Shown here piece after piece: positions 12,646 through 33,828 of a stretch of DNA of 35,135 bases. The DNA is from a virus. The position numbers and the translations under genes are program-made. The number at the start of each line of letters is the position of its first letter. Within the stretch, counting starts at the first letter, position 1. Location of the stretch: the IMG/VR virus record IMGVR_UViG_3300035199_000383, positions 1 to 35,135 of that record; one strand, given 5' to 3'. The notes below the pieces were generated by a model. It was not told where the DNA came from. It did not search any database and saw nothing but the letters and a program-made list of their open reading frames with translations.

Positions 12646-12999
12646 TTAACTTTCCTCAATCTCAATGACCGTATCGTCCTTCTCTCCTCGCTCGTACCGC
12701 AGCGTGTAGCTCACGCAGTCTGCACTATCGTCAGCAATGACACCGGCGAACACGAGCCCGTCGATGGACGCCTTCATAGACGCGAACAAGTTGTCTATGT
12801 CGCGTCTCCTTTTGTCCTTTGCTACCCAGGTGATGGTGATGTGGGCCTTGGGCATGGAGGTGCGTGGCCTACCCGCTTCAAGAACACGCAGGTACGCCTC
12901 CTCCTTGGCGAGGAGCTTGGCTTGGTAGGCGGCCATGTGATGCAAGCGTTTGTTGGGGCTTAGGTCCGGGTCAGGGAGGTGCCCGAGGTGGATGATCAT
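12646..12999 (-). CDS. rusA: RusA-family Holliday junction resolvase
   Basis: A 117-aa endonuclease of the RusA family, which cuts four-way DNA junctions as a dimer. The signature is RRRDIDNLFASMKASIDGLV followed by GVIADDSADCV. The DxDN pair and the DD pair correspond to the metal-binding acidic residues. The length is typical of the family (about 120 aa). The start at 12999 is chosen because it forms an ATGA overlap with the upstream gene and because homologues begin near here. It is the last gene of the long minus-strand operon and would resolve replication intermediates before packaging. Confidence 0.85.
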   Translation of the reverse strand: MIIHLGHLPDPDLSPNKRLHHMAAYQAKLLAKEEAYLRVLEAGRPRTSMPKAHITITWVAKDKRRRDIDNLFASMKASIDGLVFAGVIADDSADCVSYTLRYERGEKDDTVIEIEES

Positions 13000-13220
13000 C
13001 GACCAACCCCGCGGGGGCGCTTCGGGCCTGTCAGGATACCCAGCTTCGACCCGAACTTCGCCCACTCACCCACGGTCACCTTCCCGTCCTTCATCATCTC
13101 GATGCCATACTCCACCGCAGCATTACGCTCATCGGTGGTGTCGAGGCGGGCGATGATCTGCTTCCCTAGCATGATCAACCGGCGTGTCTTATATGGAAGG
13201 AACATAAGTAGCATATCCAT
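12996..13220 (-). CDS. Small hypothetical protein
   Basis: A 74-aa protein beginning MDMLLMFLPYKTRRLIMLGK and ending with a conserved-looking GKVTVGEWAKFGSKLGIL segment. The N-terminal 20 residues are hydrophobic with basic residues and could touch the membrane, but are too short and charged to be a confident membrane span. It overlaps the resolvase gene by ATGA. The family is not recognised. Confidence 0.6.
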   Translation of the reverse strand: MDMLLMFLPYKTRRLIMLGKQIIARLDTTDERNAAVEYGIEMMKDGKVTVGEWAKFGSKLGILTGPKRPRGVGR

Positions 13221-13589: not shown

Positions 13590-13915
13590 GAGTCGGTAGT
13601 CCCCGTGGTGGCGTTTGGGAGTGCGTAGCGTTCACGGAGCGCGCGCCACAGTACCAGGCGCACCCACTCAGGACTCAACACCAGGAGCAGCCGTATCATC
13701 AGCGCCGTGCTAGATCGCTTGTCCCAACTAGGATGACGACCACGGCTACGAGTGCCAACACTACGAGCGCGAGCTTCTTCTTCATGCTTCATCTCCTGTT
13801 GCCACGAGAGGTTCCGTAGGATGTGCTGGAGAACACTGACCCCCACAGGCTGGTTGACCCGAGCGACCGCGGCGGCGAAGGCAATTATCTTTAGCTGTGA
13901 GGATGTGAAGTTCAC
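13586..13915 (-). CDS. Hypothetical protein overlapping tatC by GTGA
   Basis: A 109-aa frame opening with GTG in a GTGA overlap with the tatC stop. The first 47 residues look like a real protein (MNFTSSQLKIIAFAAAVARV). Residues 48-72 are Arg/Ser-rich, the kind of sequence often produced when a different frame is the coding one, and in that stretch another frame does encode a membrane peptide (13699-13785). The last 37 residues, beginning MIRLLLVLSPEWVRLVLW at 13699, may be a separate gene, because its ATG forms a TGATG with that peptide. The family is unknown. Confidence 0.45.
   Translation of the reverse strand: MNFTSSQLKIIAFAAAVARVNQPVGVSVLQHILRNLSWQQEMKHEEEARARSVGTRSRGRHPSWDKRSSTALMIRLLLVLSPEWVRLVLWRALRERYALPNATTGTTDS
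13699..13785 (-). CDS. 28-aa hydrophobic membrane peptide nested in another frame
   Basis: ATG preceded by AGGAG with 7 nt spacing, reading MKKKLALVVLALVAVVVI and ending in SDLARR. It is three Lys, about 18 hydrophobic residues, then a short charged tail: a typical single-span or signal-anchor micro-protein. The stop forms TGATG with the next possible start. It lies fully within the 109-aa frame, so either both are used or the longer frame is only partly real. Lysis and holin-control peptides often look like this, but there is no proof here. Confidence 0.5.
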   Translation of the reverse strand: MKKKLALVVLALVAVVVILVGTSDLARR

Positions 13916-14820
13916 CTGCGTACCTTTCTGATTACCTTTCCGGTCGCTCTCGCAACCCTTCGGTACATCCAGCGCGGCACCGTGTAGGGAGCCAGCACCA
14001 CCACGCGTATCACCCTTGCCATCCAGACTACCCTATGCCACATCCAGCGTATACCACGGGCTATCGAGCCCAACCACAGATAATCCCCACGGTCTGTGTG
14101 CGTGACCCATGCACAGAACAGGCCCACTTCGTAGAGCAGGATGATCGGTACTGCCACCAGCGTCTGATTGAACGCGTCGAACGTAGGGGTGATGATCGCG
14201 CTCAGGATAAAGGCAAACACCGGAACGAACTTCCGCAGGTTCTTCATACGTCTGTACGAAACAATGTCGGCCTTCGCAAGCAGGTACATCACCACGGGTA
14301 TCTCAAACACAACGCCCAGCCAGAACATCATCGCCATCATCAGGTCGAGATATTCATTTATCGTGATGAGGGGGATCGCTACGCCGTCCCCGAAATGCAG
14401 CAGGAACCCGAGGCCCGTGGGCAGCATCACGAAGTAGGCGAATGCGCCGCCTGTCAGGAAACACATTAGGGTCGCAGGGAAGAACCAGAGGATGAAACGG
14501 CGTTGTGGCCCCGGTATGGTTGGACTGACAAGCGTATAGACGCTAACCACCATGACGGGCGCAGCGGCAAGGGCTCCGCCGCGCAGGGCCAGGCTGATGG
14601 TCGCACCTATCATGGCCGTGGGGCCAGTGAAAACAGGCGCACCACCAAAAGGGGAGAGGCTGCCCTCAGCGGGGGCGAGCAAGAACAAGAAAACGTCCTC
14701 GCGGTAATACCACGTTGACGCAGCACCTATCCCAAAGGCAATGAACAACCAGACGAGGCGCAGGCGGAGACGTTTGCCGAACCGCTGGAACGCGTCACGG
14801 TTTGCGCGACGCATAATCAC
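13912..14820 (-). CDS. tatC: TatC-like membrane protein with altered signal-binding site and basic tail
   Basis: A 302-aa six-helix membrane protein of the twin-arginine translocase TatC family. The hallmarks are GGAFAYFVMLPTGLGFLL (124-141), LGVVFEIPVVMYLL (168-181) and IITPTFDAFNQTLVAVPII (209-227), then LLYEVGL. Compared by eye with E. coli TatC, the membrane-core Glu170 (here 173) and Asp211 (here 215) are kept. The residues that bind the twin-arginine signal differ: Phe94 is Leu97, Glu103 is Gln106, and the N-terminal ELR motif reads FGKR. About 60 C-terminal residues, rich in Arg and Trp, are additional to normal TatC. The start is GTG at 14820 or ATG at 14814. No TatA/B is visible. It may be a translocase variant for phage proteins, or a neofunctionalised pore. 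Confidence 0.9.
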   Translation of the reverse strand: MIMRRANRDAFQRFGKRLRLRLVWLFIAFGIGAASTWYYREDVFLFLLAPAEGSLSPFGGAPVFTGPTAMIGATISLALRGGALAAAPVMVVSVYTLVSPTIPGPQRRFILWFFPATLMCFLTGGAFAYFVMLPTGLGFLLHFGDGVAIPLITINEYLDLMMAMMFWLGVVFEIPVVMYLLAKADIVSYRRMKNLRKFVPVFAFILSAIITPTFDAFNQTLVAVPIILLYEVGLFCAWVTHTDRGDYLWLGSIARGIRWMWHRVVWMARVIRVVVLAPYTVPRWMYRRVARATGKVIRKVRR

Positions 14821-14826
14821 AGCGGG

Positions 14827-14937
14827 TTATTCGTCGCGCCGTCGATCACGCCGCATCAGCGATGCGATCCACCCACCACCGCCAAGCAGAACAACCGTAC
14901 CTGTAACAACAGCTCCTACCATGATCCACTCATTCAT
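14827..14937 (-). CDS. 36-aa single-span membrane micro-protein
   Basis: An ATG at 14937, 4 nt after the end of the preceding frame, reads MNEWIMVGAVVTGTVVLLGG, then WIASLMRRDRRRDE. One hydrophobic helix of about 20 residues is followed by a strongly basic, then acidic, tail. The topology is N-out/C-in by the positive-inside rule. It sits directly upstream of tatC in the same transcript and is a reasonable TatA-like or holin-like partner candidate, although it lacks a TatA-type amphipathic helix of normal length. Confidence 0.6.
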   Translation of the reverse strand: MNEWIMVGAVVTGTVVLLGGGGWIASLMRRDRRRDE

Positions 14938-14941
14938 CAGA

Positions 14942-15213
14942 TTACTTTCCTTTCGTGATGCTGCTCACTTCTGTCAGCAACTCTATCCGCTTCTTCACAG
15001 CAGTACCCTTCAATCGGCACCGCTTTACCATCTTCTCTGCGTCACGCATCCCTGACAGTGTTGTTACCGTTGTCCACGTTCCGATGAAGACCAAAACTTC
15101 CGCCAGATCCTGGACGGCACCCTGAAAAAAGGGTCTGTCACTGCTTCGAAACTGCGAACGACCACCAACGCAGCCGCCATGCTTCCAAGTGTATAACCAA
15201 TCAGCCAGCCCAT
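14942..15213 (-). CDS. 90-aa membrane protein if a -1 frameshift occurs
   Basis: Frame 1 begins at 15213 (ATG in TGATG with the upstream stop) and reads a membrane helix, MGWLIGYTLGSMAAALVVV, up to residue 30. There a T-TTT-TTC heptamer (15130-15124) would let ribosomes slip back by one. They would continue in a frame that stays open to 14942 and reads QGAVQDLAEVLVFIGTW, then a basic helical tail RIELLTEVSSITKGK. A hairpin, ACCCT/AGGGT, encloses the slippery run. The joined product is coherent and fills exactly the gap to the next gene. A missing T in the sequenced run would give the same picture. Confidence 0.5.
15064..15213 (-). CDS. 49-aa unshifted form of the same membrane gene
   Basis: Without slippage the frame that starts at 15213 continues after DPFF for 19 residues, RVPSRIWRKFWSSSERGQR, and stops at 15064. 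The membrane helix is the same; the tail is basic. If both forms are made, the short and long proteins would share the membrane anchor and differ in their cytoplasmic part. Holin/antiholin pairs and tail chaperones are known to use such dual products, but which applies here is not determined. Confidence 0.5.
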   Translation of the reverse strand: MGWLIGYTLGSMAAALVVVRSFEAVTDPFFRVPSRIWRKFWSSSERGQR

Positions 15214-15509
15214 CAGTCGCCCCTCTTCCGCTTGTTACCCTCAAGTGCGCTCAGTAGACCGTCTACCGCGTCCAGCGTTTGGTCTAGGTACGCCCGCACC
15301 ATATTACGGAACGGCTTCAACCCAGCACTCTTGGCGCGGGAGCCTATCTCGTCTATCTCCGCCCGCAGGTTCTCGACCGAGAAGGGCTCGTCATCGGCGT
15401 CAGCGTCTTCTGCCTTGCGCGCAGCAGGCTTTTCCACAGCCTCCTCTGCGGGCGGTCCTTCCTCGTCAGGCACTTGGTCTTCCTGTGGGTCGTCACTCAT
15501 AATGCACAC
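15213..15509 (-). CDS. Acidic hypothetical protein with C-terminal helix
   Basis: A 98-aa protein. The first 45 residues are Asp/Glu/Pro/Ala-rich and disordered (EDQVPDEEGPPAEEAVEKPA). Residues 45-90 form an amphipathic helix region (NLRAEIDEIGSRAKSAGL, then MVRAYLDQTLDAVDGLLSAL) ending in a basic KRKRGD. GTG at 15509, about 8 nt after AAGGAAAG, is the better-supported start; ATG at 15500 gives MSDDP. Its stop overlaps the membrane gene that follows. The family is unknown; it may be a soluble regulator of the membrane cassette. Confidence 0.6.
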   Translation of the reverse strand: MCIMSDDPQEDQVPDEEGPPAEEAVEKPAARKAEDADADDEPFSVENLRAEIDEIGSRAKSAGLKPFRNMVRAYLDQTLDAVDGLLSALEGNKRKRGD

Positions 15510-15938: not shown

Positions 15939-18900
15939 CTATGCTCCTAACGCGAGTAGCTTCTGCTCAAGGCTTTCGATACGGGTCTGCATCTCCTGCT
16001 GCCTCACGTAGCCTTGCCAGATAGCACCATTGTGCAGGCGCTGGAGTCCAGTGACGCTCAATAGCCCACCATCTGCCAGCGTAGCACCTAGCACTCCGGC
16101 ATCGACAAGGTCTTGCTCATTGTATTGGATGAACTCATCCCACTTGTCTCGGATGAGGCCCATCGCGCCGTCTGCACTCTTGGCGTGGTCGAGCGCCCGG
16201 ACGAGTTGTGCATCATCGTAGCTGTCAGAGAACGCACCTACCGAAACGTCACCCGAACTAGCGTTGGCCGTCGCCCATAGCATGCCGTCCTCGTCCACGA
16301 GGAACCTGCATTGGTTGCCACTGACATTCCCCTGAACCGAGAACAGGTTGCCACCGGCTGCGACGTTCGCAATGGTATTGCTGCCGTCATGCTCTGTGGC
16401 GTAGAACGAGATGAGGCCCCTGGCTCCGGAACTCTTGGCAGTATCTGCGGTGCCTCCCCAAACCTGAACCACCCATGGTGAGCCGAGGGCACCATCATCG
16501 GCCAATATCTGCCACTTTATCCCGCCGAGACTATCTGACGCCTTCTCGATAGTCCAAATGTCGTCAGTCTCTACGTCATGACCATGAGGGGCAGTCGTCA
16601 GCCCAGTGGTAACGTCTGCACTTTTCAGGGCAAATATAATGTCATCTGCGGTACCGTGATTAATGGTCAGACCCACGCCGCCCATGCCGCCGTTCGCGGA
16701 ATCACCGATAAGCACAGCGCCAGTGAGATTACAAAATACACGCGATGCACCAGCAGAATCATCAGCGATTCTGAAACTTCCATCATTACGGGATGTCAGC
16801 TTCCAGTCATGACCGCTGCTGTCGGTTTGTTTAAGCTGAATCGTCGATTCTTCTGCGGCATCACCCTCCAAGGCAACGGCAACAGTTGGCGTTGTATCAC
16901 CAAATCCCACGTACTGCGTAAAGTACACACGTCCGTTGGACGGTATCGTTATCGCGTCCCCGTCGGAGGCGGAGCCGATGGTGCCGCCATTCGGGACAGC
17001 TATGTTCCCACTGAACAATATACGTCCGTCGGTGCTGTTGGTAATCGTCTCGTCGTTCTCAAGGATGATCCCGCCAGAACCGGTGATGTCGATGCTGACA
17101 GGGAACGTCACCGCACCACCATCCGCGATGGTCATCGCATTGTCCCCGTCGGTGTAGCCGATGCCGGTGGTCTGTACCTCACCAGCTATGTTTGCATCGC
17201 CTGATACATCAAGGCTACCGGCATCTAGCTCGCCCGTTAGGGTGATGTTCCTAAATGACCCGATGTCCTTGTTGCTATCAACAACCACGCCAAGGCTGGC
17301 CGATACCGTCCCTGCGGTCACGGCATCTAGGACGTTCAGTTCTTCAGGTGTAGCTGAAATCTGCGTTGTGCTTGCGGCAGCCAATACTGGAAGATATCCA
17401 GATTGATTAGGCGTATAAACAGTTCTGTCTGCCGTAGGGTCGATTATCGTCAGTGTTGTCTCGTATCCGTCCGCAGTCGCACCCTCAAATACAACGGCGT
17501 TGGCTGCGTTCATCGTCACGGTATCGACAATGGTCTGAGTCCCAGTGACCGTAAGGTTTCCATCAATCTGCACCGCCCCTGCAAAGGTGACGTCAGCGCC
17601 AGCAAAGGTGGCAGCAGTAGTGCCAGAGGAACTGGACTTGATGAGCAGTTCACCGCTGTTGTTCGTCAGCGTCCCGAAAAGCGTGCCATCATCTTTCAGG
17701 AATATGTCAGCGCCACCAGCGTCGAGGATGATGTCTGTTCCAGCGTCGAGTTCGATACCCCCGGCATCAGATAGGAGTTCGATGGACCCAGTACCTGTAC
17801 CTTGGTCAGCGTGTATCTTGATCGTCTCGCTTGTACCCGCATTTGCTCTCAGGTATATGGCAGCGGCGGCGTTATCAGACGATGTAAGGTTGACCGTTCC
17901 TCCAGCAACATCAACATCCTTGCCCGTGGCTGCGTTGATATCAATTCCACCGGCATCGGACAGTAGCTGGATAGAACTCTCGCTCGTCCCTTGGTCTGAC
18001 TGTATGTATATCGTCTCGCTCGTACCACCATCCGCTATCAGTTTGATGGACTTAGCAAGATTGGCCGTTGATTTGAGTTCTACTCCACCCGCGTCGGAGA
18101 GGAGTTGTATAGATGAAGCGCCTTCTGTTACTGAAGTACCTTGGTCATTGAACAGCGTCATAGACGAGGTGGTGCCACCATCAACCGTGATGTTCACGGC
18201 ATTAGCGAGATTGGCGGTACTGCGTATGCCAACCCCACCAGCATCAGAAAGCAGCGAAATAGATTCTGCGCCTTCTGTTACTGAAGTACCTTGGTCATTG
18301 AAGATAGAGATAGAACCCGTTGTACCACCGTCACTCGTGATATTGATTGCGCTTGCTAGATTGGCCGTAGAGCGGATGCCTACCCCACCAGCGTCCGAAA
18401 GGAGGGAGATAGACTCAGCGCCCTCCGTTACCGAAGTACCCTGGTCGTTGAAGATAGCGATGGAGCCTGTAGTTCCCCCATCACTGGTAAGGTTGATTGC
18501 CTTCGCCAAGTCAGCGGTGCTTCTGATGCCCACCCCACCAGCGTCGGAGAGGATGTTTATCGACTCGGCACCCTCAGTAACCGACGTACCTTGATCTGCA
18601 TGGATCTTGATCGTGCCGGAAGTTCCTGCATTTTCACGCAGATAGATGGCGGCAGCAGCGTCGTTGGTGCTTACGAGGTCGATATCCCCAGAGGAGTCCA
18701 CCTGAACGTCAGTAACGTCCCAGTCCACCGAGCCGTTGACATCAAGGATGCCGGGGATTAGCACGCTAGAAGACGCGACAGTTGCATGGGGGGTAATCGT
18801 CATCTGGGCGACGAGGTCGCTGTCACTACTGCCACTTGCTCGGTTGTCGAAAGTAAGTACGCCACCGTCAGCAGCATTGATTCTCCACACGTCTATGTTT

Positions 18901-19232
18901 GCATCGGCCCTGTCAGCAAATAGATAGATCGGTGCCGCAGCCCCATTCACGCCGCGTACCTTCAAGGCTGATGTGTCTACCGTCTTCAGGGTTATCTCGT
19001 CAGACCAAGGGATATACCTGATCTGGGAACCGCTCACTACCTTGATATCGTAGGTTTCAGTAAGGGTTTGTTCTGTAAACGTCCACGTACCATTTGCATC
19101 AGTGGTGGTGGTGGTTTCCTGAGTACCGGCAAGGTTCGCAGCAGTCTCCAGTAGATAGACAGTGAGATCGGCTACCGCAGCGCCAGCATCATCACGTACC
19201 TTTCCGCTTAGATTGATGTCCGTTATAGCCAT
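15939..19232 (-). CDS. Repeat-built tail fibre or receptor-binding protein
   Basis: A 1097-aa protein. Residues 1-75 resemble a CNA-B/carboxypeptidase-regulatory beta sandwich (LSGKVRDDAGAAVADLTVYL, then DANGTWTFTE). From about residue 165 to 470 it is built of 50-residue repeats around DQGTSVTEGAESI, LLSDAGGVGIRSTANLA and ITSDGGTTGSI, of which four are close copies and others are decayed; such repeats usually fold as a beta-helix. A beta-rich stalk and a distal head follow. The last 30 residues are a coiled coil (RIESLEQKLLALG), as expected for a trimeric fibre. It probably binds the host surface. Receptor and polysaccharide specificity cannot be read from the sequence. Confidence 0.82.
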   Translation of the reverse strand: MAITDINLSGKVRDDAGAAVADLTVYLLETAANLAGTQETTTTTDANGTWTFTEQTLTETYDIKVVSGSQIRYIPWSDEITLKTVDTSALKVRGVNGAAAPIYLFADRADANIDVWRINAADGGVLTFDNRASGSSDSDLVAQMTITPHATVASSSVLIPGILDVNGSVDWDVTDVQVDSSGDIDLVSTNDAAAAIYLRENAGTSGTIKIHADQGTSVTEGAESINILSDAGGVGIRSTADLAKAINLTSDGGTTGSIAIFNDQGTSVTEGAESISLLSDAGGVGIRSTANLASAINITSDGGTTGSISIFNDQGTSVTEGAESISLLSDAGGVGIRSTANLANAVNITVDGGTTSSMTLFNDQGTSVTEGASSIQLLSDAGGVELKSTANLAKSIKLIADGGTSETIYIQSDQGTSESSIQLLSDAGGIDINAATGKDVDVAGGTVNLTSSDNAAAAIYLRANAGTSETIKIHADQGTGTGSIELLSDAGGIELDAGTDIILDAGGADIFLKDDGTLFGTLTNNSGELLIKSSSSGTTAATFAGADVTFAGAVQIDGNLTVTGTQTIVDTVTMNAANAVVFEGATADGYETTLTIIDPTADRTVYTPNQSGYLPVLAAASTTQISATPEELNVLDAVTAGTVSASLGVVVDSNKDIGSFRNITLTGELDAGSLDVSGDANIAGEVQTTGIGYTDGDNAMTIADGGAVTFPVSIDITGSGGIILENDETITNSTDGRILFSGNIAVPNGGTIGSASDGDAITIPSNGRVYFTQYVGFGDTTPTVAVALEGDAAEESTIQLKQTDSSGHDWKLTSRNDGSFRIADDSAGASRVFCNLTGAVLIGDSANGGMGGVGLTINHGTADDIIFALKSADVTTGLTTAPHGHDVETDDIWTIEKASDSLGGIKWQILADDGALGSPWVVQVWGGTADTAKSSGARGLISFYATEHDGSNTIANVAAGGNLFSVQGNVSGNQCRFLVDEDGMLWATANASSGDVSVGAFSDSYDDAQLVRALDHAKSADGAMGLIRDKWDEFIQYNEQDLVDAGVLGATLADGGLLSVTGLQRLHNGAIWQGYVRQQEMQTRIESLEQKLLALGA
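18001..18600 (-). repeat. Four tandem 150-bp repeats in the fibre gene
   Basis: The landmark encoding TSVTEGA recurs at 18118, 18268, 18418 and 18568, exactly 150 bp (50 codons) apart. Two neighbours share an identical stretch of more than 30 bases, which argues for recent duplication, while the outer copies have drifted. Repeat number is probably variable between relatives. Confidence 0.85.
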
Positions 19233-19235
19233 GGC

Positions 19236-19631
19236 TTACCCGCCTCCTAGCCTGGAGTGGTCTTGGTAGTTCAGTGCTTCGCGACAATAATACGTGGGAT
19301 CACGAAGCAGGTCATCATCGTCGATGAACACTAGCGTGATGTTCTGCCCGGCCATGGCTGCACGAGCCATGATGTCTCGCGCCCGTGCTTCGACGCCGAA
19401 CTCATAGTGGTAGTACACGCCTTGCACATTGACCGCCAGGTCCGGGGGCTCGGTGAAGAGGAAGTCGATCACGAAGCCGCCCTTGTCGAGACGGCCTCCC
19501 ATCAAGGGGGATTGGTACGTGAAGTCCTGCCCTGGCTCGAGGCCAAGTTTTATGAATGTCTGATAGGCAACATACTCAGGTATGGAGCCAGCCCAATCAG
19601 CAGGAACTTGTATGTCAGCCTGCGTGGTCAC
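19236..19631 (-). CDS. Nuclease-fold-like protein in the tail module
   Basis: A 131-aa protein starting at GTG 19631. The pattern GGRLDKGGFVIDFLFTEPPD, then LAVNVQGVYYHYEFG and an ARARDIMARAAMAGQNI helix with LVFIDDDDLLRDP, resembles the Vsr/DUF559 type of PD-(D/E)XK fold. A Lys or Glu expected at the second catalytic position is replaced by the Asn/Gln of NVQG, so activity is uncertain. Its place between a fibre gene and small virion genes suggests a virion-associated protein. The fold call is by eye. Confidence 0.5.
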   Translation of the reverse strand: MTTQADIQVPADWAGSIPEYVAYQTFIKLGLEPGQDFTYQSPLMGGRLDKGGFVIDFLFTEPPDLAVNVQGVYYHYEFGVEARARDIMARAAMAGQNITLVFIDDDDLLRDPTYYCREALNYQDHSRLGGG

Positions 19632-19632
19632 G

Positions 19633-19926
19633 TCATCCCTCTAGAATCATCGCCCAGCACACCTTGTCGCCATTGGTGGCTGCATCGGCGTAGAAGACAT
19701 TCGCCGGAACGGAGCCACCAAACTCGCCGAAGTTCAGTTCGATCTCATTGCCAGCACTCAGCTCATAGCCTATCGAAGCGGACACGTCATTGACTCCCAC
19801 ATAGGCCAAGCCGGAGTTCCCGGCAAGCGCCTTGAGTTTCAGGTACTTGACTCTGTTCGTAGCATTGAGCACCTGTACCGCCGTCCCTGCTGAAGTGACT
19901 GTTGTCACGCCTGCATCTACCCTCAT
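19633..19926 (-). CDS. Small beta-rich virion protein
   Basis: A 97-aa protein of alternating beta strands (MRVDAGVTTVTSAGTAVQVL, then KYLKLKALAGNSGLAYVGVN, and FYADAATNGDKVCWAMILEG). The pattern fits a jelly-roll or decoration-type virion protein. It has no Cys motif or membrane segment. It lies between the propeller-like tail protein and the nuclease-fold protein, all in one transcript. Confidence 0.6.
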   Translation of the reverse strand: MRVDAGVTTVTSAGTAVQVLNATNRVKYLKLKALAGNSGLAYVGVNDVSASIGYELSAGNEIELNFGEFGGSVPANVFYADAATNGDKVCWAMILEG

Positions 19927-19934
19927 CCTTACTC

Positions 19935-21881
19935 CTAGGGCTCTACGACTTGTATCGTGGTTGAGCCACGCTCGTCATGACCCGTAAATTCCAATCCTTG
20001 TGCAGCTACTACGTCAACGTAATAGTTCCTCGTGCCACCCCCATCATCCCTGAACGTGAACTCCACCAGCGTGGTGCTTTCTATGGCGGTGATCAATGCC
20101 GAGCGTAGGTCTTTGGGCACGTTGCCTTTGTACTCGTTGGTGAGATCAACATCAACGGTATGGCCCCACTTGGCTGGTAGTTTCTTTCGATATTCCAGAG
20201 TCAGAGATATTACGTCTGGCGTCTTGAATTTCTCTAGTCCTGTTGTGGTGGCCGAAGACCGGGCAAGCGTCAGCTTGAATTTGATAGCCCTAAATGCAGT
20301 GCCTGCTTTGCTACCAAAGGTATGGACATGGGTTCCAGAAGCGGCCCCCATCGCACTGGCATTTATAGGGTCATCGCCGATGGGATAGTACGTCTCTATA
20401 TAGTTGACAGCGTACTCGACCTTAACGGTCTCAGTGGACGTAAGGTCTTGTGCCTCTGTCCGAAGGCTGAGTGCGAGCTTATCAACTTCGGATTGACCCG
20501 CATTGAACCACGGTGTCTCGTGGGTACTTTCCAGAGCGTAAGCGAACGCTGATACCTCTGACGGGTTGATGATGTCTTTGGGCAAATCCATGAAGTGGAC
20601 GATGTCGTTGTGCCCCCACCACACCCGGTACTCACCATATGCATCAGAGACATGCATCGCATCGAAGCCCTTACCAGATGTACCAGAAGCCCACTTCACC
20701 TCCCAGCCCATATCGTTATAGCCGAGGATCGAGCTATTGCCAGAACTAGGTTCCATAGTCCTAGCCCCATGATGGCTGATCCATTGATAGGGAAGAGAAG
20801 TAGCAGCGACAGAGCTTGGTGCTGCCGTTGCATCTATCCCAACGAGCAGTTCATTGTGAGAGCCAGCCATATGGCGTATGGCCCCTCGGTATCCTGAAGG
20901 CAGACCATCGTCCCTATCTGGCCCCACTATCGTGATGACAGCGGCATTGTTCCCATTGATGTACTTATAGATGCCATTGCCCGATGGGATGTAAACCGAG
21001 TCACGCCATCGAGTGGTTCCCTTACCGTTGTCCGGGTGAACAGGGAAGTCCATCTGCGTGTCTTCCCACATAGCGTTGTCTGCGTTGTGGGCAAACAGGC
21101 CGTGCGTGGTAGCGGCGTAGATGATCGGCACACCTATGGCATTACGAGCTACGAACAGCTTGGTGATCGAGCCTGCTGGCAAGGGTAATTGAGCGTCATT
21201 GACCTCTGTGCCTATAGTTGTGGAATACCAGAGTAACCCGCCATAGCTGATACCCCAGAGTCTCTCATCCCAGGTCGTAAGGTATTTGGTGTCTTTGCCA
21301 TTAGCAGCCGTAGTCCAAGTAGAACCATTGTAGTAGGTGTAGTTACTTCCGTTAGAATCATAGTGGGCGAAAACGAGGTAGTCATTCGCTGAGGCGTCTG
21401 TCCAGACAATCGAATCTGTGACCTGATCTGCCGTGGTATCGAGCGCACTTCCCCAGCTACCGCTTGCATTACTGTATTTGTAAATCTGTGCGTCTGCACC
21501 AGAACCTGCATTCCATGCTGCATAGACTTCATTCGCGTAGGTATTTATCGCGCCTATCGTCGCACCGTTGATGCTATGAGTAGGGGTAGTGGTCTGGGTA
21601 ACGAGGCCAGGTAGGACGAGATGGTTCTTGTACCGAAGTTGCGAGGTACTGAACCAGGCACGGTTCACCTCTCCGGCACCCTCCATACGGTTGATACCGA
21701 TACCACCGCGCCAGTCAGTCCAGGCGATGATGCTCGAGCGAAGCTGCGAGTCCTTGGTGGTATCCCCGATGATGACCTTGGCTGGGTAGAGAGATGCTAA
21801 CTGAGACCGTACAGGTCTGGTTAGTGGGTAGTACGTGCCATTGAGATAGATCTCATTCTCTTCGACGACTGAATTCGCCAT
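19935..21881 (-). CDS. Large tail/virion protein, possible beta-propeller
   Basis: A 648-aa protein with repeated Trp-containing strands of the kind seen in beta-propellers (VYAAWNAGSG, IVWTDASANDYLVFAH, YLTTWDERLWGIS, GVPIIYAATTHGLFA). Residues about 500-648 form a beta-rich C-terminal domain with LTNEYKGNVPKDLRSALI near its end. In phages with similar neighbours such proteins form part of the tail or baseplate. The start at 21881 overlaps the adaptor gene's stop in a TGATG. No enzyme motif is visible. The structural role is inferred from position and composition. Confidence 0.65.
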   Translation of the reverse strand: MANSVVEENEIYLNGTYYPLTRPVRSQLASLYPAKVIIGDTTKDSQLRSSIIAWTDWRGGIGINRMEGAGEVNRAWFSTSQLRYKNHLVLPGLVTQTTTPTHSINGATIGAINTYANEVYAAWNAGSGADAQIYKYSNASGSWGSALDTTADQVTDSIVWTDASANDYLVFAHYDSNGSNYTYYNGSTWTTAANGKDTKYLTTWDERLWGISYGGLLWYSTTIGTEVNDAQLPLPAGSITKLFVARNAIGVPIIYAATTHGLFAHNADNAMWEDTQMDFPVHPDNGKGTTRWRDSVYIPSGNGIYKYINGNNAAVITIVGPDRDDGLPSGYRGAIRHMAGSHNELLVGIDATAAPSSVAATSLPYQWISHHGARTMEPSSGNSSILGYNDMGWEVKWASGTSGKGFDAMHVSDAYGEYRVWWGHNDIVHFMDLPKDIINPSEVSAFAYALESTHETPWFNAGQSEVDKLALSLRTEAQDLTSTETVKVEYAVNYIETYYPIGDDPINASAMGAASGTHVHTFGSKAGTAFRAIKFKLTLARSSATTTGLEKFKTPDVISLTLEYRKKLPAKWGHTVDVDLTNEYKGNVPKDLRSALITAIESTTLVEFTFRDDGGGTRNYYVDVVAAQGLEFTGHDERGSTTIQVVEP

Positions 21882-23143
21882 CAGTCCACAGACCTCACAT
21901 TAGCCAGCATGGGGAAAGCCCTGCGGGCACGCTGCGCTTGGTCTACCCAGAATGCACTTAGCTGACGCTTTGCGTCCGGGTCTGTAGCTGGGCCGCCAGA
22001 CGTTGAGAGAAGTAACAGAGAGATGGTATTAGCGATAATGTAATCTTCATCTATCTCTGTGGTATCTGAGTCAGCGGTCATCAGCGCAGGCTTGTCGCCA
22101 CCGGTGAGCTTGATGAGCGCATAGCCCACAGCGTCCTGGCCGTCCCGCACGAGGATCAGGTCGCGGGCCTCCTTGTCGATCTTCCAGTTGCGCCGGTCAA
22201 GGGTTTCCCACTCAGCAGTGTCGTTGTGAACCACGCGGAGTTCATCGAATCGCACTGTATTCGTACCTGAATTCGCGTTGTACTCGATCCCAACACTAAC
22301 GATTGCAGTGTCTGACTCAGGGTTCGCGAGTTCTATTCGGAAGAATGTCCATGTATCGGCTGAAGCCGCAGGAACCGCAAGAGTCTCAAGGTCATTTCCA
22401 TCACAGGTACAAGTTGCATTGTCGAGACAGATATTGAAATCTCCAGCCGCGATGGCTGTAGTAGCTTTTACCCAACCCTCAAGATGGGTGTACCCAGAGA
22501 TGTTGAGTGAGTTGAACGAGTCGCTGATGAAGCTACCATCGCCTGCTGAGGTAGTGATCTTGAGCGAGGAACCACGCTTGTAGTCCTTGCTATCTACCGC
22601 CTGCGTCATCTCGGCATCAGTAGACTCATCGAACGTAACACCGCAAGTATGGATACTTGCACTGCTTATCCTGGCCCGGTACTCGATCTTGGAGATCATC
22701 GAGATACCTGACGGGATATCGAATCGAACCTGCTTCCCATCGCCGTGCAGCGTGATGTTTTCGATGGGGTCGTAGACCCAGCCCGTCGCAGCCAGGATGG
22801 ACTGGTTGATGAAGTCATCTATGTGGTCAGGACTATAAGCGCCGTCCCACAACTCATACGATTCTGAAGCCGTTGAAGCCGTAGCGGCAGGCATGAACGT
22901 ATGGGTGGTGACGTTGTTCGTGATTGATGAGTCAGTGATCCGCCTCGTAAGGGTGTCGTTACTGCCACTAGTGAAGCGTATCCATTTGCCTATCTGGGTA
23001 TCAGCCCCGCCGAGAACGATGCTGTTATCGAGAAGCGTTGTTGTGCTACCACTTTCAGTAGCAGCAGACACATAGAGACCACCGACAGCACGGCCTACGT
23101 GCTGCCTTAATTGCTCACGGGTTCTCCCTTGTATCGCAGGCAT
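21881..23143 (-). CDS. Head-tail adaptor-like protein with inserted CBM-like domain
   Basis: A 420-aa protein. The N-terminus (GRTREQLRQHVGRAVGGLYV) and C-terminus (KRQLSAFWVDQAQRARRAFP) resemble adaptor/tail-completion proteins of podovirus-like phages. Residues about 170-310 interrupt this with a galactose-binding-like jelly roll: RGSSLKITT, the FNSLNISGYTHLEGWVKA strands, WTFFRIELANPES, and NTVRFDELRVV as the closing strand. Such CBM_4_9-type modules bind sugars, so the inserted domain could contact host glycans or just decorate the particle. The stop overlaps the next gene by TGATG. Confidence 0.65.
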   Translation of the reverse strand: MPAIQGRTREQLRQHVGRAVGGLYVSAATESGSTTTLLDNSIVLGGADTQIGKWIRFTSGSNDTLTRRITDSSITNNVTTHTFMPAATASTASESYELWDGAYSPDHIDDFINQSILAATGWVYDPIENITLHGDGKQVRFDIPSGISMISKIEYRARISSASIHTCGVTFDESTDAEMTQAVDSKDYKRGSSLKITTSAGDGSFISDSFNSLNISGYTHLEGWVKATTAIAAGDFNICLDNATCTCDGNDLETLAVPAASADTWTFFRIELANPESDTAIVSVGIEYNANSGTNTVRFDELRVVHNDTAEWETLDRRNWKIDKEARDLILVRDGQDAVGYALIKLTGGDKPALMTADSDTTEIDEDYIIANTISLLLLSTSGGPATDPDAKRQLSAFWVDQAQRARRAFPMLANVRSVD

Positions 23144-23159
23144 CGCACTTCCTTCTTAC

Positions 23160-23288
23160 CTAACGAGTGGGCTCTCTGAGCTTGCGGTCCCGTTGGGGCT
23201 TTACGGCTCGAGCAGCGATGATGAAGCGAGGATCTTTGAGCCGTTCCTTCTGTTCCTTGCTCAACTTGCTAGGCTCTTGGGACGGCAT
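23160..23288 (-). CDS. 42-aa basic hypothetical protein
   Basis: ATG at 23288, two bases after the preceding stop, reads MPSQEPSKLSKEQKERLKDP, then RFIIAARAVKPQRDRKLREP. It is a charged, mostly helical, basic peptide. Tight packing between coding neighbours on the same strand supports it. No family is recognised; it may be a minor virion or DNA-binding peptide. Confidence 0.5.
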   Translation of the reverse strand: MPSQEPSKLSKEQKERLKDPRFIIAARAVKPQRDRKLREPTR

Positions 23289-23290
23289 CG

Positions 23291-23416
23291 CTAGTACCCA
23301 CCCTTCTTCTTCTTCTTGTTATTGGTCATCTTCTGCCCAGTACGCTTCGCGTACTTACCCGCAGCTTCTTTGCCACGAGAGGTATAGGGGAATTTCTTAC
23401 CGCCTACCTTTGGCAT
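23291..23416 (-). CDS. 41-aa Lys-rich phage protein
   Basis: ATG at 23416 reads MPKVGGKKFPYTSRGKEAAG, then KYAKRTGQK and ends in a run of five Lys. Small proteins beginning with this 'vGgKkFpYT-GK-AA' pattern are common in the head/tail region of podovirus-like phages, where their role is unknown. The strong positive charge suggests contact with DNA or scaffold. Confidence 0.65.
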   Translation of the reverse strand: MPKVGGKKFPYTSRGKEAAGKYAKRTGQKMTNNKKKKKGGY

Positions 23417-23418
23417 GA

Positions 23419-23619
23419 CTATTTCCCTTTCTGACCGTGCCCGTTCTTAGCCTTCTCTAGCTCCTCGGTCAGTCGAACATTCTCTTGCATGGCACTCTCG
23501 AAAGCGAGGTTGGTCGCTTCCAGTTGCCTGGCAAGAGCATGGTTCTGCACCTTGAGCGTCATGATCGGGTCGGTATTCAGCACGGCCTGGACATCGTCGC
23601 TGGTTATCTGTAGATCCAT
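23419..23619 (-). CDS. Small coiled-coil protein
   Basis: A 66-aa protein. After DLQITSDDVQAVLNTDPI, most of the rest is a heptad-like coiled coil (HALARQLEATNLAFESAMQE, then LTEELEKAKN). It lies two bases before the Lys-rich gene. It is probably a minor structural or assembly protein. Confidence 0.6.
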   Translation of the reverse strand: MDLQITSDDVQAVLNTDPIMTLKVQNHALARQLEATNLAFESAMQENVRLTEELEKAKNGHGQKGK

Positions 23620-23628
23620 TTCCTCTTC

Positions 23629-23985
23629 CTAGTAATACAGTTTGTTATTGGTGCTCTCAGCCCTACGGTCGCGATGCACTCTAAAGTCATGAAGCGCCTT
23701 GCCTGCCTCTTTCATCTCGGCGTGAGTAGCAGGTCGCTTGTTGTACTTCTGCTTCGCGTCTCTGATGTAGTTCTCAGCCGCATAGCCCATCTGATCTTCT
23801 ATCTCGGCATCGCTGGTGAACTCATCAGCCATCACAACTATCTTCTGCTTATGCTTTACACCGAACGTGTCGGTGTAATGCACCTCCATCTGCTTGGAGA
23901 CGATAGTTCCGCCTGTTTCCTTATTCCGCCCAAGGGGGGTGGTACGGATGTACCTGCCCCCCTCGGGTAGCCATAAATCCTGCAT
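23629..23985 (-). CDS. Hypothetical virion-region protein
   Basis: A 118-aa protein whose ATG at 23985 follows GGAG. The N-terminal half is beta-rich (MQDLWLPEGGRYIRTTPLGR, then VHYTDTFGVKHKQKIVVMAD), the C-terminal half helical and charged. It lies between the capsid-associated protein and the coiled-coil protein. The family is not recognised; a head-completion role is possible. Confidence 0.6.
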   Translation of the reverse strand: MQDLWLPEGGRYIRTTPLGRNKETGGTIVSKQMEVHYTDTFGVKHKQKIVVMADEFTSDAEIEDQMGYAAENYIRDAKQKYNKRPATHAEMKEAGKALHDFRVHRDRRAESTNNKLYY

Positions 23986-23998
23986 GCCCACTCCGGGT

Positions 23999-24739
23999 CT
24001 AGAACAAGTTCATTAGGAAGACTGAACTGAACTCGTTGTCCACACCAGCTATACCGTGAACTCTTGCCAGGGCAGGGGTAGTGTCCGCACCGATAGCGAG
24101 AAGCTGTCCTGCGTGGTTGGAGCTTGCACCTACCAGCGTACCGATTGCTGGAGTACCGTCCATCTTGACGTTGGCAATACCTGAAACCTGTACCCAGCCG
24201 AAGTAGTCAGCCTCAAGGTCGGCGCAGGTTACGCCAACGAATCGTCCTGCGACCGCTGCGGGCGCAACCACGATGTCCTTGTAAGGACTCTTGATCAGAC
24301 CAACGGAGTCCGTGCCAGCCGTGATCGCAGTCTGGAAGCCATCAGGCTCATCGATCGTGAATGTGCCCGTTCCACTGCTGTCGATGGCAGGGTGGCTCTT
24401 GATCTTGTACATCTCGTGCGGAGTGGTAGAGGCAAGGTTTGGCCGGATGTAACCCTCTGCATAGAGATTCTTGGCTGCTGCCGTACCACCAAGCGTGATA
24501 CCGATAGTGAAGCCACCTACGGTAGAACTCGTTGCAACCACCAAGTCGTCGTCGTGGTTACCCGCTGGAGCTTCGCTCGCTACGACCAAGCCTTCAGCGA
24601 TGGCAGTCCCGCCATTCTCGACATAACGGAAGATCCGTCCGTCAGGTAGTGCCATGGTTGCTCCGTAGACTTGTCTCTTCTCAGAGTGAGTCTGCTTCTC
24701 GAAACCATAGCGTCCGCTTTGAATCGCTCCGAAAGACAT
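23999..24739 (-). CDS. Capsid-associated (decoration-type) protein
   Basis: A 246-aa beta-rich protein beginning MSFGAIQSGRYGFEKQTHSE. Its composition and segments such as GFTIGITLGGTAAAKNLYAE and GRFVGVTCADLEADYFGWVQ fit proteins encoded next to the major capsid gene in many phages, which decorate or stabilise the shell. It is separated from the next gene upstream by about 76 nt in which I see no gene. The role is inferred from position. Confidence 0.6.
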   Translation of the reverse strand: MSFGAIQSGRYGFEKQTHSEKRQVYGATMALPDGRIFRYVENGGTAIAEGLVVASEAPAGNHDDDLVVATSSTVGGFTIGITLGGTAAAKNLYAEGYIRPNLASTTPHEMYKIKSHPAIDSSGTGTFTIDEPDGFQTAITAGTDSVGLIKSPYKDIVVAPAAVAGRFVGVTCADLEADYFGWVQVSGIANVKMDGTPAIGTLVGASSNHAGQLLAIGADTTPALARVHGIAGVDNEFSSVFLMNLF

Positions 24740-24815
24740 GATGTCTCCTCTCTACAGGCTCAAAGTCCTGCGACCGCCGTTGTTGATGTATCGCCAGGCA
24801 CGGCAATCGTTACAC

Positions 24816-25181
24816 CTAGCTAGCTTTAAAGTGAGGCCCCATTTGCCTCGTCCCTTTTCCTACAAGCACCGGTTCTTCCTTGGAAGCGGGGGCGGCAGGT
24901 GTCCCTACCGCCGCTCGCTCCTTACACCATCGGCATTCACAGGTATCGCTAGGAGGCCAGGTGAATAAGCCGATCTTTGACTTCTTCATCACGTAATCGG
25001 GGTTGCCGGGAACATTCTCTATGAAGGTTCCCACACCATCTGCGATCCCTCCTTCTGCGAAATAAGAAGCTTTGTGTCTGTACAGTATGGTCTTTGGCTG
25101 CCACTCGTCTATATATCTCAATGAGTAGCCTATTCCTACCAACTCATTCTGCATCTTGTTTCGTTCTGTTATTCCTGCCAA
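24816..25181 (-). CDS. Hypothetical protein with CxCxxC motif, next to the capsid gene
   Basis: A 121-aa protein that probably starts with TTG at 25181, because AGGAG lies 8 nt upstream. It contains YSLRYIDEWQPKTILYRHKA and, near residue 82, CECRWC, a likely metal-binding site. The Pro/Ala tail is disordered. It lies just downstream of the major capsid protein. No family is recognised. Confidence 0.6.
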   Translation of the reverse strand: MAGITERNKMQNELVGIGYSLRYIDEWQPKTILYRHKASYFAEGGIADGVGTFIENVPGNPDYVMKKSKIGLFTWPPSDTCECRWCKERAAVGTPAAPASKEEPVLVGKGTRQMGPHFKAS

Positions 25182-25197
25182 GACCTACTCCTAGATC

Positions 25198-26073
25198 CTA
25201 GTTATTACTGGCGAGTGTGGTGACATCGAACGTGATGCCTGCTCCACGGCTGTCATCAAGCTCGAATACTCCGTAGTCCGCAGTCATCACCACTTCGGTT
25301 GCCCGAAGGGATGCGTCTCGCTGACGCTCAGTGCGGGTATCAACACTGGTCAGTGACGCCATCGCCGTCTTGTCAGCGATGACACCGATACCGTCTCCAT
25401 CAGAGTCCTCGGTGATGTTCCCATCCTCGAAGATAGAGACACCGTTCATAGGGCGAAGGCCACTCCAGAAGTTCCCGAGGAGATCTTCAGACCAGCCATG
25501 AGGAATACCGTTGGTCACCGCGGAGGCCACCGTTGCAGCTTCCTTGGAAAGGTAAGCAACTGCGTTTGGGTGGTGGAGGATGTAGAGTTGGTTCCCAAAC
25601 TTGTTGGCCTTTGCGTAGGCGATCACAGCTTGGACGTTGGACGCCTTCATGAACTTCGTTGCGGCACCAAGTTTCGTCCCGCCGTTCAGGTTGGTGTAGA
25701 GGCCCAGCACATCTTCGTCTTTCTTGCGGGCCATGCCGTCCCCGAGTTGTCTGCCGATCATGGAGAACACGTTGTCTGCGGCTTGCCGGACCAGCTTGTC
25801 GGTCAAGATGACCTTGGCTCCCACCTCGGATGCGGTAAGGTCTACCGTGGTCATTCCGATGTCTTCCTCATCGATGATATCGATACCGTCTTGAAGGTCG
25901 CTCATCGACATCTGCCCAACCTTGGGCACCGTTACCTGCTTGGCACCCTTTGGAAGGCTGAATGGCTCGATAAGAGCTAGTGCAGGGGCGTTGTGCTCTT
26001 CGGTGTACCTCGCCGAAGCAAGGATGATCCTCTGAGCATTCTCGAGATTACCAGTCGTTGCGGTCGTTGCCAT
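25198..26073 (-). CDS. Major capsid protein (HK97-like fold)
   Basis: A 291-aa shell protein. The N-terminal arm and E-loop region (ARYTEEHNAPALALIEPFSL, then VTVPKVGQMSMSDLQDG) and the P-domain helix with QLGDGMARKKDEDVL are typical of HK97-fold coats. The late part reads DYGVFELDDSRGAGITFDV. The length is in the normal range. A scaffold-like gene precedes it, as expected for a co-assembled head. It is the most reliable structural landmark in the window. Confidence 0.82.
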   Translation of the reverse strand: MATTATTGNLENAQRIILASARYTEEHNAPALALIEPFSLPKGAKQVTVPKVGQMSMSDLQDGIDIIDEEDIGMTTVDLTASEVGAKVILTDKLVRQAADNVFSMIGRQLGDGMARKKDEDVLGLYTNLNGGTKLGAATKFMKASNVQAVIAYAKANKFGNQLYILHHPNAVAYLSKEAATVASAVTNGIPHGWSEDLLGNFWSGLRPMNGVSIFEDGNITEDSDGDGIGVIADKTAMASLTSVDTRTERQRDASLRATEVVMTADYGVFELDDSRGAGITFDVTTLASNN

Positions 26074-26085
26074 AGGAAGTCTCCT

Positions 26086-26877
26086 TTAACTCCCGAAATT
26101 CAAACGTCGTGCGGCCCTTGTTGCCGCCTCTGACCTATCGCCGTTGATGTAGGCGTCCAGCAAACGGTCCTGATTGGTCGTGACCTCCGCCGATCCCTGA
26201 CTATTGTCGAAAGTCTGCGGTCCGACACGGCCCTGCTTTAGCCTGTCTATCTCCGCTCGTTGAGAGCGGAACTGGGCGATACGTTTAGCTTCGATATCCA
26301 TCTCTTGAGGAGTCCTGCTCCTCGTCAGAGCCTGGATATCTGCAAGCGCTTGTTTAGGCAGCAGGTTGTACTTCTGTGCATAGTGCATCGCAGCATTATT
26401 CCTGCCTTCTACGAAACCGACGAGGTCGAGAGCCTTCGCATCTTGGTCTCTGGTTTTCTGTGCGTGAGCAAGGTGTTGCCTAGCTACCAGTCGAGCACTC
26501 TGTGGGTCGGCACCCTGTTCCTGTGCCCTGCGCTCAACCGTCTGAGCTTCACGCATGAGTTGCTGCTGCCATTCCTTCTGGGCATTCGCCTGTCGGAGGC
26601 GCTGCAACTCCACGAGTTCTTGTACTTGATTGCCAGGTAGCATCTCCTGCGGAGGGTCTAATGACGGAGTGCCATCTTCATCGAGGGCTGGTGCCCCTGG
26701 TTCAGCCGGAGCCCCAGGGACTACCTCTGTCGGTCCTGCTTCTACGACTGGAGCTTCTTGTACCTCTTCCGGTTGCCGTTGCTCTTCAGGTGCATCGGCA
26801 TCACCCAGATCTAACATGGTTGATGGAACAGCTTGTTCCGGCTGCTCTTCGTTGATCGGGTCCGTTGTCATTACCAT
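26086..26877 (-). CDS. Scaffold-like protein
   Basis: A 263-aa protein with no globular domain that I can see. The first 90 residues are Pro/Glu-rich and disordered. Residues 95-165 are a Gln/Arg-rich coiled coil (LVELQRLRQANAQKEWQQQL, then MREAQTVERRAQEQGADPQS). The C-terminus is helical and basic, as needed to bind the coat. Position directly upstream of the capsid gene fits a scaffold. The start at 26877 has AAGGAG 8 nt before it. Confidence 0.72.
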   Translation of the reverse strand: MVMTTDPINEEQPEQAVPSTMLDLGDADAPEEQRQPEEVQEAPVVEAGPTEVVPGAPAEPGAPALDEDGTPSLDPPQEMLPGNQVQELVELQRLRQANAQKEWQQQLMREAQTVERRAQEQGADPQSARLVARQHLAHAQKTRDQDAKALDLVGFVEGRNNAAMHYAQKYNLLPKQALADIQALTRSRTPQEMDIEAKRIAQFRSQRAEIDRLKQGRVGPQTFDNSQGSAEVTTNQDRLLDAYINGDRSEAATRAARRLNFGS

Positions 26878-26922
26878 TTCCTACTCCTTCGGTTCTAGTC
26901 TCGACTTTGTCTTAAAATAAAG

Positions 26923-29900
26923 TCAAGGCGCTAGGATAGCCCCTGCCGTAACCTTAGTTCTTGGTAGCGTTCTTTCTTCTGAAGTCTTTCGCCATGGCTC
27001 CAAGGTGGTGCCTTCACTGACAGCTATCAAGAACTCCGCCATATTGGGTATCGGCTTATCGCCCCTACGATGTCGCTCAAGTATCGCAAATGCCTCTTGT
27101 GCCCGTCGACTATAGGGCTTTTTATTGATGCTGTAGCGTTTGTCTAGAATCGCGAGCATGCTCTCAATATGCGCTCGACCTTCTCTCTCTGCCTGATATT
27201 CTTTCCCTTGTAGATTCTGCGCTGCGGCATCTGTCATATTGAAGTAGCTATCCATATATATCTGTCGCAAACGGTCGATATCTTCGAGATTTACGATACC
27301 GTGTCTTCTCGCTTCATCAGCGATAGTTTTCTTGGCATCACTACTTGCTCCCTTCCATCGGAGATAGAAGGTCTCTACCGTTTCTCGAGGATGACGGCTG
27401 GCTTTCGTTAGCAAGTCGATCCCTATATTGTCGAATTCATAGTAGGTATTCCCATCGACCATGGGTTGCCTGCTGATGTACTTCTGCATCTCGAATAACG
27501 TCTCTGTGAGTGGCGGTGAATCCTTTGTCATCGAGTCTTCTACACGCCAGAGATATCTCTTTAGCCGCTCTCTATCTATCGATGGGTATCGTTCCTCCAT
27601 CATCTCGTACCAGAGTTCGGTCTTCTTGTCCTTCAGATTCCAATCGATCTGTCCAGTGGTGCCACTTACTATCGGTGGCAAGGTATTACCCTTTTTATCC
27701 TTCGTCTCTTCATAGAAGGTAGAGAAGTAGAAATGCTGGGCTGCATCATAGATATCTACATCCCAATCACTGACGTTCCTCGGTAGTTCATTGTCGCCGA
27801 ATAAGTCCTCGACTACTCCGTGAAAATCACCCTCCGGTGAAGTAAGGGTACGTCTTCTCCTTGAGTAGAGACCGTTTATCTGTCTCATCAACCGTGCAAA
27901 CACCTTGAGATCTCCAGGCTCTACACGTTGTCTCTCCGTTTGTTCTTTCCCATCCTCATCGATATAGGAATAGGTGATAAATCCTTTGTCTGCTGGGTCG
28001 GGATTGATAAAGGCATCTTCAGTCGAATGCATCACTTCTAATTGATGTCTATCCAGAGACTCTCTCACTAGCTTGTATTGGTCATAGGCACTTGCACTGC
28101 GCGCTCTGCGTTCGTTGATCCTCGACTCGAAGTCAGCCATCTCTTCAGGGGTCATCACGTCTTTGAATGCTCCGCTGGAGATCATCTCTCTGATCTTCTT
28201 CTTATGGTCATTCGCTAAGTCTTCCCACTTAGGAACCGGATCGCCGAGGCGTCCTCGGAACGCGATGCTAACGCTCAAGTCCTCTCCGATATCGACAGCA
28301 CGGTTCCACCAGGCTTCGCCTGATTGCGCCCAAAGCTGCTTCATCTCTTCCTCGGTCATCGCGCCCGTATCAACGCCGAAGACTTGTAACTTCTGCTCGT
28401 AGGTCAGCTTCTCGAGGATATCGTTGTATGCCTCGTTCTTCGCTTCGTTGATGGTCTCATATGCACTCTTGACACCGAAAAGCTGTCCAACGGTCTGACC
28501 AACTCCAGCGGCTATCGAACTGATGCCCTTCAATGGTTCGCTCGGTAGCTGCTTCGCACCGCCGAATACTCTGCTTACAATCGATCGTTGGCCTGGTTGA
28601 CTGAAAGCAAACTCGGACCAGGCGAAGGGCGTTACATGCTCCATCATTTCTTCCGCGATAAACCCAGGCCATTTATAGACCTCTTCTGGGAGATTACGGA
28701 ACGTGCTTTGACCGATGGCGTCTTGTCCTCTGATCGCATCTATCGCTGCCGCTGTGCCTGGCGCACTGATAGCAGAGCGTAGAGCCCAGAGACTCTTGAA
28801 GCCCTCTTGACCTGCATTCGCAACTATCAAGCCAGGAAGTGACGTAAGCCGTAGCATGCTGTCCCATGGCCCTAGGAGGCTGATATCTATCGGTCCGGCA
28901 TGGATACGCAAGAAGTTGGGATTGTAGTACCACTGTCCTGTAGCTTTATTTCTAACGAACGGATTGATATCGGTCTCTTCTCCGAGCATCTCATTGATCA
29001 TGAATGTCATATAGGTAGCTGTACCGAAAGCTCTGCTCAGGTGTTGAGCAGCGACCCTTCGCTGTGCTGTCTTCTCGAAACCTGGCAGCAATCCTTCTGC
29101 TGCAAGAGACAGCATCTTCATGCGTGCATGGAGAAAACGAGGGGCGAATAGCAACATCTGACCGGCCCCCCCAAGAAATCCGCGTTTCCCCACACCTGAC
29201 ATGAAGTTCGCAACCGTGGCTATCTCGGTAGCGGTGCCATCTTGGACTAATTGCTGCGGAGTCTTGCCTGTACGCAACATCTCCAGGGCCATATCGGTAT
29301 CGAAGCGTTCATATCGAAATACGTTTCCGTAGTGCGTGAATGCTGCATCGAAGTTTTTGATACCGGGAAGATTGCGAAGGGTCGAACTTCCGCTGTAGTT
29401 GAGGTCTGGTGCATTCTTCAGTATCGCAAGGCCCGCATTCGCAGCCTCTGTCGGAGTTAGCGTGCCCATCTGGAGGGCCATCTGCTCCTGCCTCCAGAAG
29501 TACTCACCAACGATCTGGTCTCCTTGCGTCCTAAAGGCTTCCCAGCTTGCTGCAAGCGCAGTAAAGGCATCTCCTCGTCTATTGATCTTCATACCTGCCG
29601 CGCCAGTACGCTGGTCGATCACGCCTCCACGCTCGAGAGCATCGTTTAGGACACCTGTCCATCCCTGTATGCCGAAAGCGCTGAAGTCACCGGTTGCTCC
29701 CACCATCCTTAGCCACGCGTTAAATGTAGCCAAGAAGAAATAATCATTGGCTTTGTCACGAGCTATGTTCGTCTTCAATATGGCGTCTGCGAAGATCTTA
29801 GGGAAATACAATCCTTCCATAACATCATCACCAACACCGGCGATGCTTTTGAAGTCTCTGGTTACGGCCTTCTTCGCCTCGGCAACAGCCTTCTTGTGAT

Positions 29901-33053: not shown

Positions 33054-33065
33054 GCCATGTTCTCC

Positions 33066-33818: not shown

Positions 33819-33828
33819 AGTTCTCTCC

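Follow-up and report, generated by a model that had tools for sequence, protein, structure and literature searches.

TatC normally couples the reading of a signal to the thinning of the membrane. In the cryo-EM structure of the E. coli TatBC-substrate complex from 2026, the SRRxF motif is held by H12, E15, F94, Y100, and E103, and E8 of TatB docks on T208 and Q215 of TatC (PMC13323110). E. coli translocase containing TatC with the exchange E103G, E103K, or F94S is inactive (PMC3827258). TatA is laid out as a polar residue, 12 hydrophobic residues, a glycine, and an amphipathic helix (PMC9527704); in two-component TatAC systems, TatC is accompanied by a very small protein of one helix, the outer end of which bears an acidic residue. 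The holins TpeE and BhlA, small single-helix membrane proteins with a short cytoplasmic part and encoded in phage late regions, have a TatA-like layout (PMC9527704). As for TatC in viruses, the literature search returned one automatic annotation (Fig. 6 of PMC10564846), a PF00902 protein in a circular marine virus, and, within the accessible parts of the sources, no analysis of a phage TatC. In the accessible part of that paper, which discusses neither residues nor neighbors of the protein, it carries an automatic label only; it resembles the one described here by being encoded in an environmental phage of ~35-40 kb. The papers searched yielded no described lysis system for Chloroflexota with S-layers instead of peptidoglycan.

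The window, i.e., the whole stretch of 35,135 nucleotides that was analyzed, is a linear IMG/VR virus record. It encodes tail proteins, a 1923-aa late protein, a terminase small subunit, and a major capsid protein, whose relatives in viral contigs number in the hundreds (Table 1). Directly after the tail genes, at their downstream end and in the direction of the late structural genes, lies a tatC-like gene, which has a GTG start at 14820 with an in-frame ATG two codons further on and at which the base composition of the window shows no break. Its product matched PF00902 (E=1e-46, 159.8 bits; cut-off 25.1) and TIGR00945 (145 bits, above the curated equivalog cut-off of 132.7). Its PDB sequence matches were TatC without exception, and so were, in a Foldseek search with its AlphaFold model (pLDDT 62, low confidence), all seven PDB hits at E<=0.001. 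Judged by its sequence, the protein is a true TatC homologue, and the membrane core that the preliminary description of this DNA had recognized in a phage-borne TatC is borne out. The AlphaFold comparison proposed there returned TatC exclusively at this threshold; the models were too weak for reading the geometry of the pocket.

Table 1. Positions of the tatC-like gene, its neighbors, and the late structural module in the window.
Feature	Position	Strand	Description
Late structural module	15939..35106	minus	tail protein, major capsid protein (25198-26073), 1923-aa protein; cassette joined to the downstream end
Gene 1	15213..15500	minus	95 aa; acidic N-terminal part and conserved helical part (RAKxAGLxPxxxM)
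Gene 2	14942..15213	minus	MGWLIGYTLGSMAAALVVV...; N-terminal membrane helix (MGWL) and long helix
Gene 3	14827..14937	minus	36 aa, one predicted membrane helix: MNEWIMVGAVVTGTVVLLGGGGWIASLMRRDRRRDE
tatC-like gene	13912..14820	minus	302 aa; TatC core (residues ~17-240) and Arg/Lys/Trp-rich C-terminal tail
Small downstream gene	12996..13220	minus	relatives in L167 (near its tatC), L126, and L128

Single-protein scans of viral and genome collections returned no relatives; five further viral contigs (L143/G051, L167/G360, L169/G361, L170/G363, and L173/G362) encoding TatC 50-62% identical to the window protein emerged from a tail-gene scan, from a motif pattern, and from alignment queries. In a maximum-likelihood tree with Chloroflexota TatC, the six phage proteins form one clade with a long stem and 100/100 support, nested among the Chloroflexota rows near Dehalococcoidia, which settles the question raised earlier of whether the phage copies group together. 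Because this one clade lies inside Chloroflexota TatC, tatC was, most simply, acquired from Chloroflexota a single time, and we infer that the six phages probably also have their hosts in this phylum. A second hint at such hosts may come from the capsid protein, relatives of which (of only ~32% identity) were found in 18 of 400 Chloroflexota genomes versus 0 of 294 Planctomycetota genomes. Apart from the small genes beside it (see below), TatC is the only protein common to all six contigs, which are incomplete; five share a capsid and tail gene set that G361 lacks. TatC as a general trait of this capsid family is ruled out, since none of 50 contigs with related capsid genes, many of them fragments, encoded it. 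The TatC hits among INPHARED "phage" records were likewise discarded: the annotated ones adjoin tatB in bacterial DNA (AFYI01000004, CAKLQH020000005, and CAKLQH020000024, i.e., mislabeled or contaminated phage records), and the others lack annotation or have a doubtful origin.

In the phage proteins, the residues by which E. coli TatC grips the twin-arginine motif are replaced. In the window TatC, E170 and D211 of E. coli correspond to E173 and D215, F94 and E103 to L97 and Q106, and H12, E15, and Y100 to F14, R17, and P103; the HLxELR motif is absent. The preliminary description had assigned the first four of these positions in the same way and had noted the missing N-terminal ELR, all of which the alignment confirmed. 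Throughout the six phage proteins, H12 is exchanged for F or L, E15 for R, F94 for L, and E103 for Q (four proteins), K, or H. Among 59 Chloroflexota TatC, H12 is present in 56, E15 in 54, an aromatic residue (F or Y) at position 94 in all, and E103 in 58; position Y100, occupied by T, R, K, or M in Chloroflexota, is uninformative. Considering all 66 comparison TatC, 59 have the full set of H12, E15, F94, and E103, and the other seven lack one or two of the four, never more; position 94 is aromatic in every one. L97 and Q106 are, therefore, not typical of the likely host group, and because the loop proved to be correctly aligned, neither of the two objections foreseen for an altered site holds. 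T208, P209, D211, and Q215, on the other hand, are unchanged in all six phage proteins and E170 in five (Q in L169). For the closest pair, L143 and L167, dN/dS of tatC is ~0.12, which indicates purifying selection. The exchange of E15 for R in every copy is, as far as the alignment tells, no sign of decay but a charge reversal that became fixed before the clade began to diversify. The phage TatC cannot use the known RR contacts, yet it has retained the docking site for TatA and TatB.

The long C-terminal addition, put at about 60 Arg/Trp-rich residues previously, was found again: the window protein has 71 residues with a net charge of +13 beyond the E227 position. In all six phage proteins, the tail is basic (43-71 residues, net +7 to +17) and rich in Trp and Arg/Lys, compared with 9-47 residues (median 20) and a net charge of -2 to +9 in 39 Chloroflexota TatC. 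The notion that this tail forms an amphipathic helix was dismissed, as its helical amphipathicity did not exceed that of shuffles in four of the six. Thus, the phage proteins share with cellular Chloroflexota and Dehalococcoidia TatC (PF00902, TIGR00945; the nearest three are 37-43% identical) the core, the docking residues, and an ITPTFD..NQ motif but differ in lacking H12, E15, F94, E103, and HLxELR, in their longer basic tail, and in being encoded next to three orphan genes instead of tatA or tatB.

These three genes, which the preliminary description did not include, directly precede tatC in constant order in all six phage contigs: gene 1 with an acidic start and the conserved RAKxAGLxP helix, gene 2 with the MGWL membrane helix and a long helix, and gene 3 with a single membrane helix. 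In most of the contigs, the stop of one gene overlaps or adjoins the start of the next. The L143 copies had no Pfam match and nothing convincing in PHROGs; all contigs returned by a family search with gene 2 also carry tatC. The gene 3 product (36-41 aa) has a Glu, 14-16 hydrophobic residues, a glycine run, and a basic end in all six phages. Compared with the layout of TatA, it has the acidic residue, the hydrophobic helix, and the glycine, but the hydrophobic stretch comprises 14-16 instead of 12 residues, and the amphipathic helix is absent or very short. Aligned to TatA with hhalign, it reached a probability of 7.5%, and two of 150 column shuffles scored as high; gene 2 as a TatA or TatB was rejected for want of profile support (hhalign 1.4%). 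PF02416 (TatA/B/E) gave no match in the window or in the five other TatC-carrying contigs, even at E<=10. Gene 3 is, by these comparisons, TatA-like in layout only, kinship not being established by sequence comparison. The earlier statement that TatA and TatB are missing from the window consequently stands with respect to the protein family, yet it overlooked three conserved membrane or helical orphans, one of which has a TatA-like layout. In the pairing of TatC with a very small protein of one helix and an acidic residue at its outer end, the arrangement resembles two-component TatAC systems, although no TatA homology is detectable in gene 3, its cytoplasmic part is shorter, and the phage TatC lacks RR recognition. 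Gene 3 shares with TpeE and BhlA the features mentioned above, but there is no sequence match, and gene 3 is tied to TatC and two further proteins; its only hit in PHROGs was phrog_2658 ("hol-like chemotaxis"), and a weak one (E=0.23). A simple scan of the incomplete contigs for hydrophobic stretches and RR pairs revealed no clear RR signal except the N-terminus of TatC itself and chance or overlapping ORFs, in agreement with the previous impression that no protein with an obvious twin-arginine signal is present. Two irregularities of the cassette were observed. A -1 shift at the slippery-type sequence C_CCT_TTT (~15133-15125, minus strand) interrupts gene 2 of the window; this may be an assembly or sequencing indel, a real lesion, or a programmed frameshift, and in the other phages, the gene runs in one frame. 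In L170, an HNH endonuclease gene (L170:666-1238:+) is inserted between genes 2 and 3.

The reading we favor, with a probability of roughly 0.4, is that TatC and the three small proteins constitute a phage-owned complex, derived from Tat and independent of a signal, by which the membrane is opened at a late stage of infection. A TatC derived from Chloroflexota would no longer read twin-arginine signals and would form a membrane complex with its three co-inherited neighbors, in which the gene 3 protein may dock on TatC via its conserved Glu, as TatA and TatB do. Freed from control by a signal, TatC could gather gene 3 helices, and these might thin or open the cytoplasmic membrane late in infection. 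This would amount to lysis or exit by a holin-like step. Such an opening is favored on several grounds: the cassette closes the tail module; capsid relatives devoid of TatC have other small membrane proteins in this slot behind the tail genes; the 45 proteins encoded by the window and by G360 include no member of an endolysin or holin family; and peptidoglycan is missing from SAR202 and Dehalococcoidales (PMC11994032, PMC10608941). Were these the hosts, no endolysin would be needed. That a signal-stripped TatC recruiting its own miniature TatA-like helix is a lysis machine replacing both holin and endolysin in hosts without peptidoglycan is a tentative idea, and we would sooner doubt it than assume it. 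The lysis role is a best guess from the position of the cassette and from the lack of known lysis genes in contigs that are incomplete. Against the favored reading, gene 3 has neither detectable TatA homology nor a full amphipathic helix, and its hydrophobic stretch is slightly longer; the retained E170 and D211 suit a functional translocase no less than a pore; and some Chloroflexota do have peptidoglycan, while the host is inferred only to phylum level. The proteins in the post-tail slot of TatC-free relatives are unknown membrane proteins (L088:11748-13109, L094:6779-8149, L097:9242-10882). Irrespective of which reading is correct, a natural TatC lineage without the signal pocket but with the TatA/TatB docking site uncouples signal reading from membrane thinning and can serve to test whether the membrane-opening step of Tat can run without a signal peptide. 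The cassette further hints at a way in which phages might affect, or lyse, Chloroflexota with S-layers in place of peptidoglycan, and it suggests that viruses have made an export machine over into their own membrane tool.

Two further readings are close rivals of the lysis role. A phage TatC that docks but cannot bind RR signals would poison the host Tat receptor: by joining host TatA and TatB, it could shut down export, save membrane energy, or keep other phages out. Retention of T208, Q215, and D211 in all six proteins that have lost the signal residues speaks for this, as does the single origin of the phage TatC from the likely host phylum, and since the phages carry no gene of the TatA/B family, host TatA could be the partner. 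However, poisoning leaves the three co-inherited genes, the late position behind the tail module, and the long basic tail unexplained, and we consider it possible but somewhat improbable. Alternatively, the pocket may have been re-aimed rather than lost. Its acidic residues E15 and E103 have become basic or neutral (R and Q/K/H), so that another, perhaps acidic or unpaired, peptide might be bound and a specific phage or host protein exported. The concerted and conserved nature of the change, with E15 replaced by R in every copy instead of random decay, the purifying selection on tatC, the retained core with E170 (5/6) and D211 (6/6), and the strongly acidic N-terminal part of gene 1 all speak for a translocase of this kind. 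In the simple scan, no potential substrate whose N-terminus resembles a signal was common to the six contigs, in which, incomplete as they are, TatC was the sole common protein. We regard a re-aimed translocase as rather unlikely.

The membrane location, the adjoining tail genes, and a basic tail that could touch DNA or lipid would also suit an inner-membrane protein that helps or blocks the passage of DNA, at entry or in superinfection, apart from any lysis or export. As no link to virion or DNA was seen, and given the poor amphipathicity of the tail in four of the six, we deem this very unlikely. Least credible is an ordinary auxiliary gene, i.e., a host TatC that supports host export during infection and accepts RR substrates via relaxed contacts. 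The protein does pass the TatC family models PF00902 and TIGR00945, and a viral PF00902 protein has been annotated once, in a marine virus (PMC10564846). But none of the four signal-holding residues survives in any phage copy, and in E. coli, E103K or E103G alone suffices to inactivate TatC (PMC3827258).

Several neighboring genes deserve mention besides the complex with TatC that we favor. In two TatC phages, a gene for a VTT/DedA membrane protein adjoins tatC on the opposite strand (L231:925-1470:+, L233:12244-12807:+); going by its title, an E. coli study cited in PMC10846249 ties loss of DedA to poor Tat export. An association of the small gene downstream of tatC (Table 1) with the cassette is possible, judging from the distribution of its relatives. 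Lastly, the Chloroflexota loci L249-L252 contain the distant capsid relative (MCP at L249:9838-10692:- and L250:8462-9316:-). In the three of these capsid cassettes viewed in detail, the MCP gene is accompanied by tail-type genes related to window positions 19935-21881 and lies near the same sulfatase-like gene; these loci are possibly a domesticated phage cassette.
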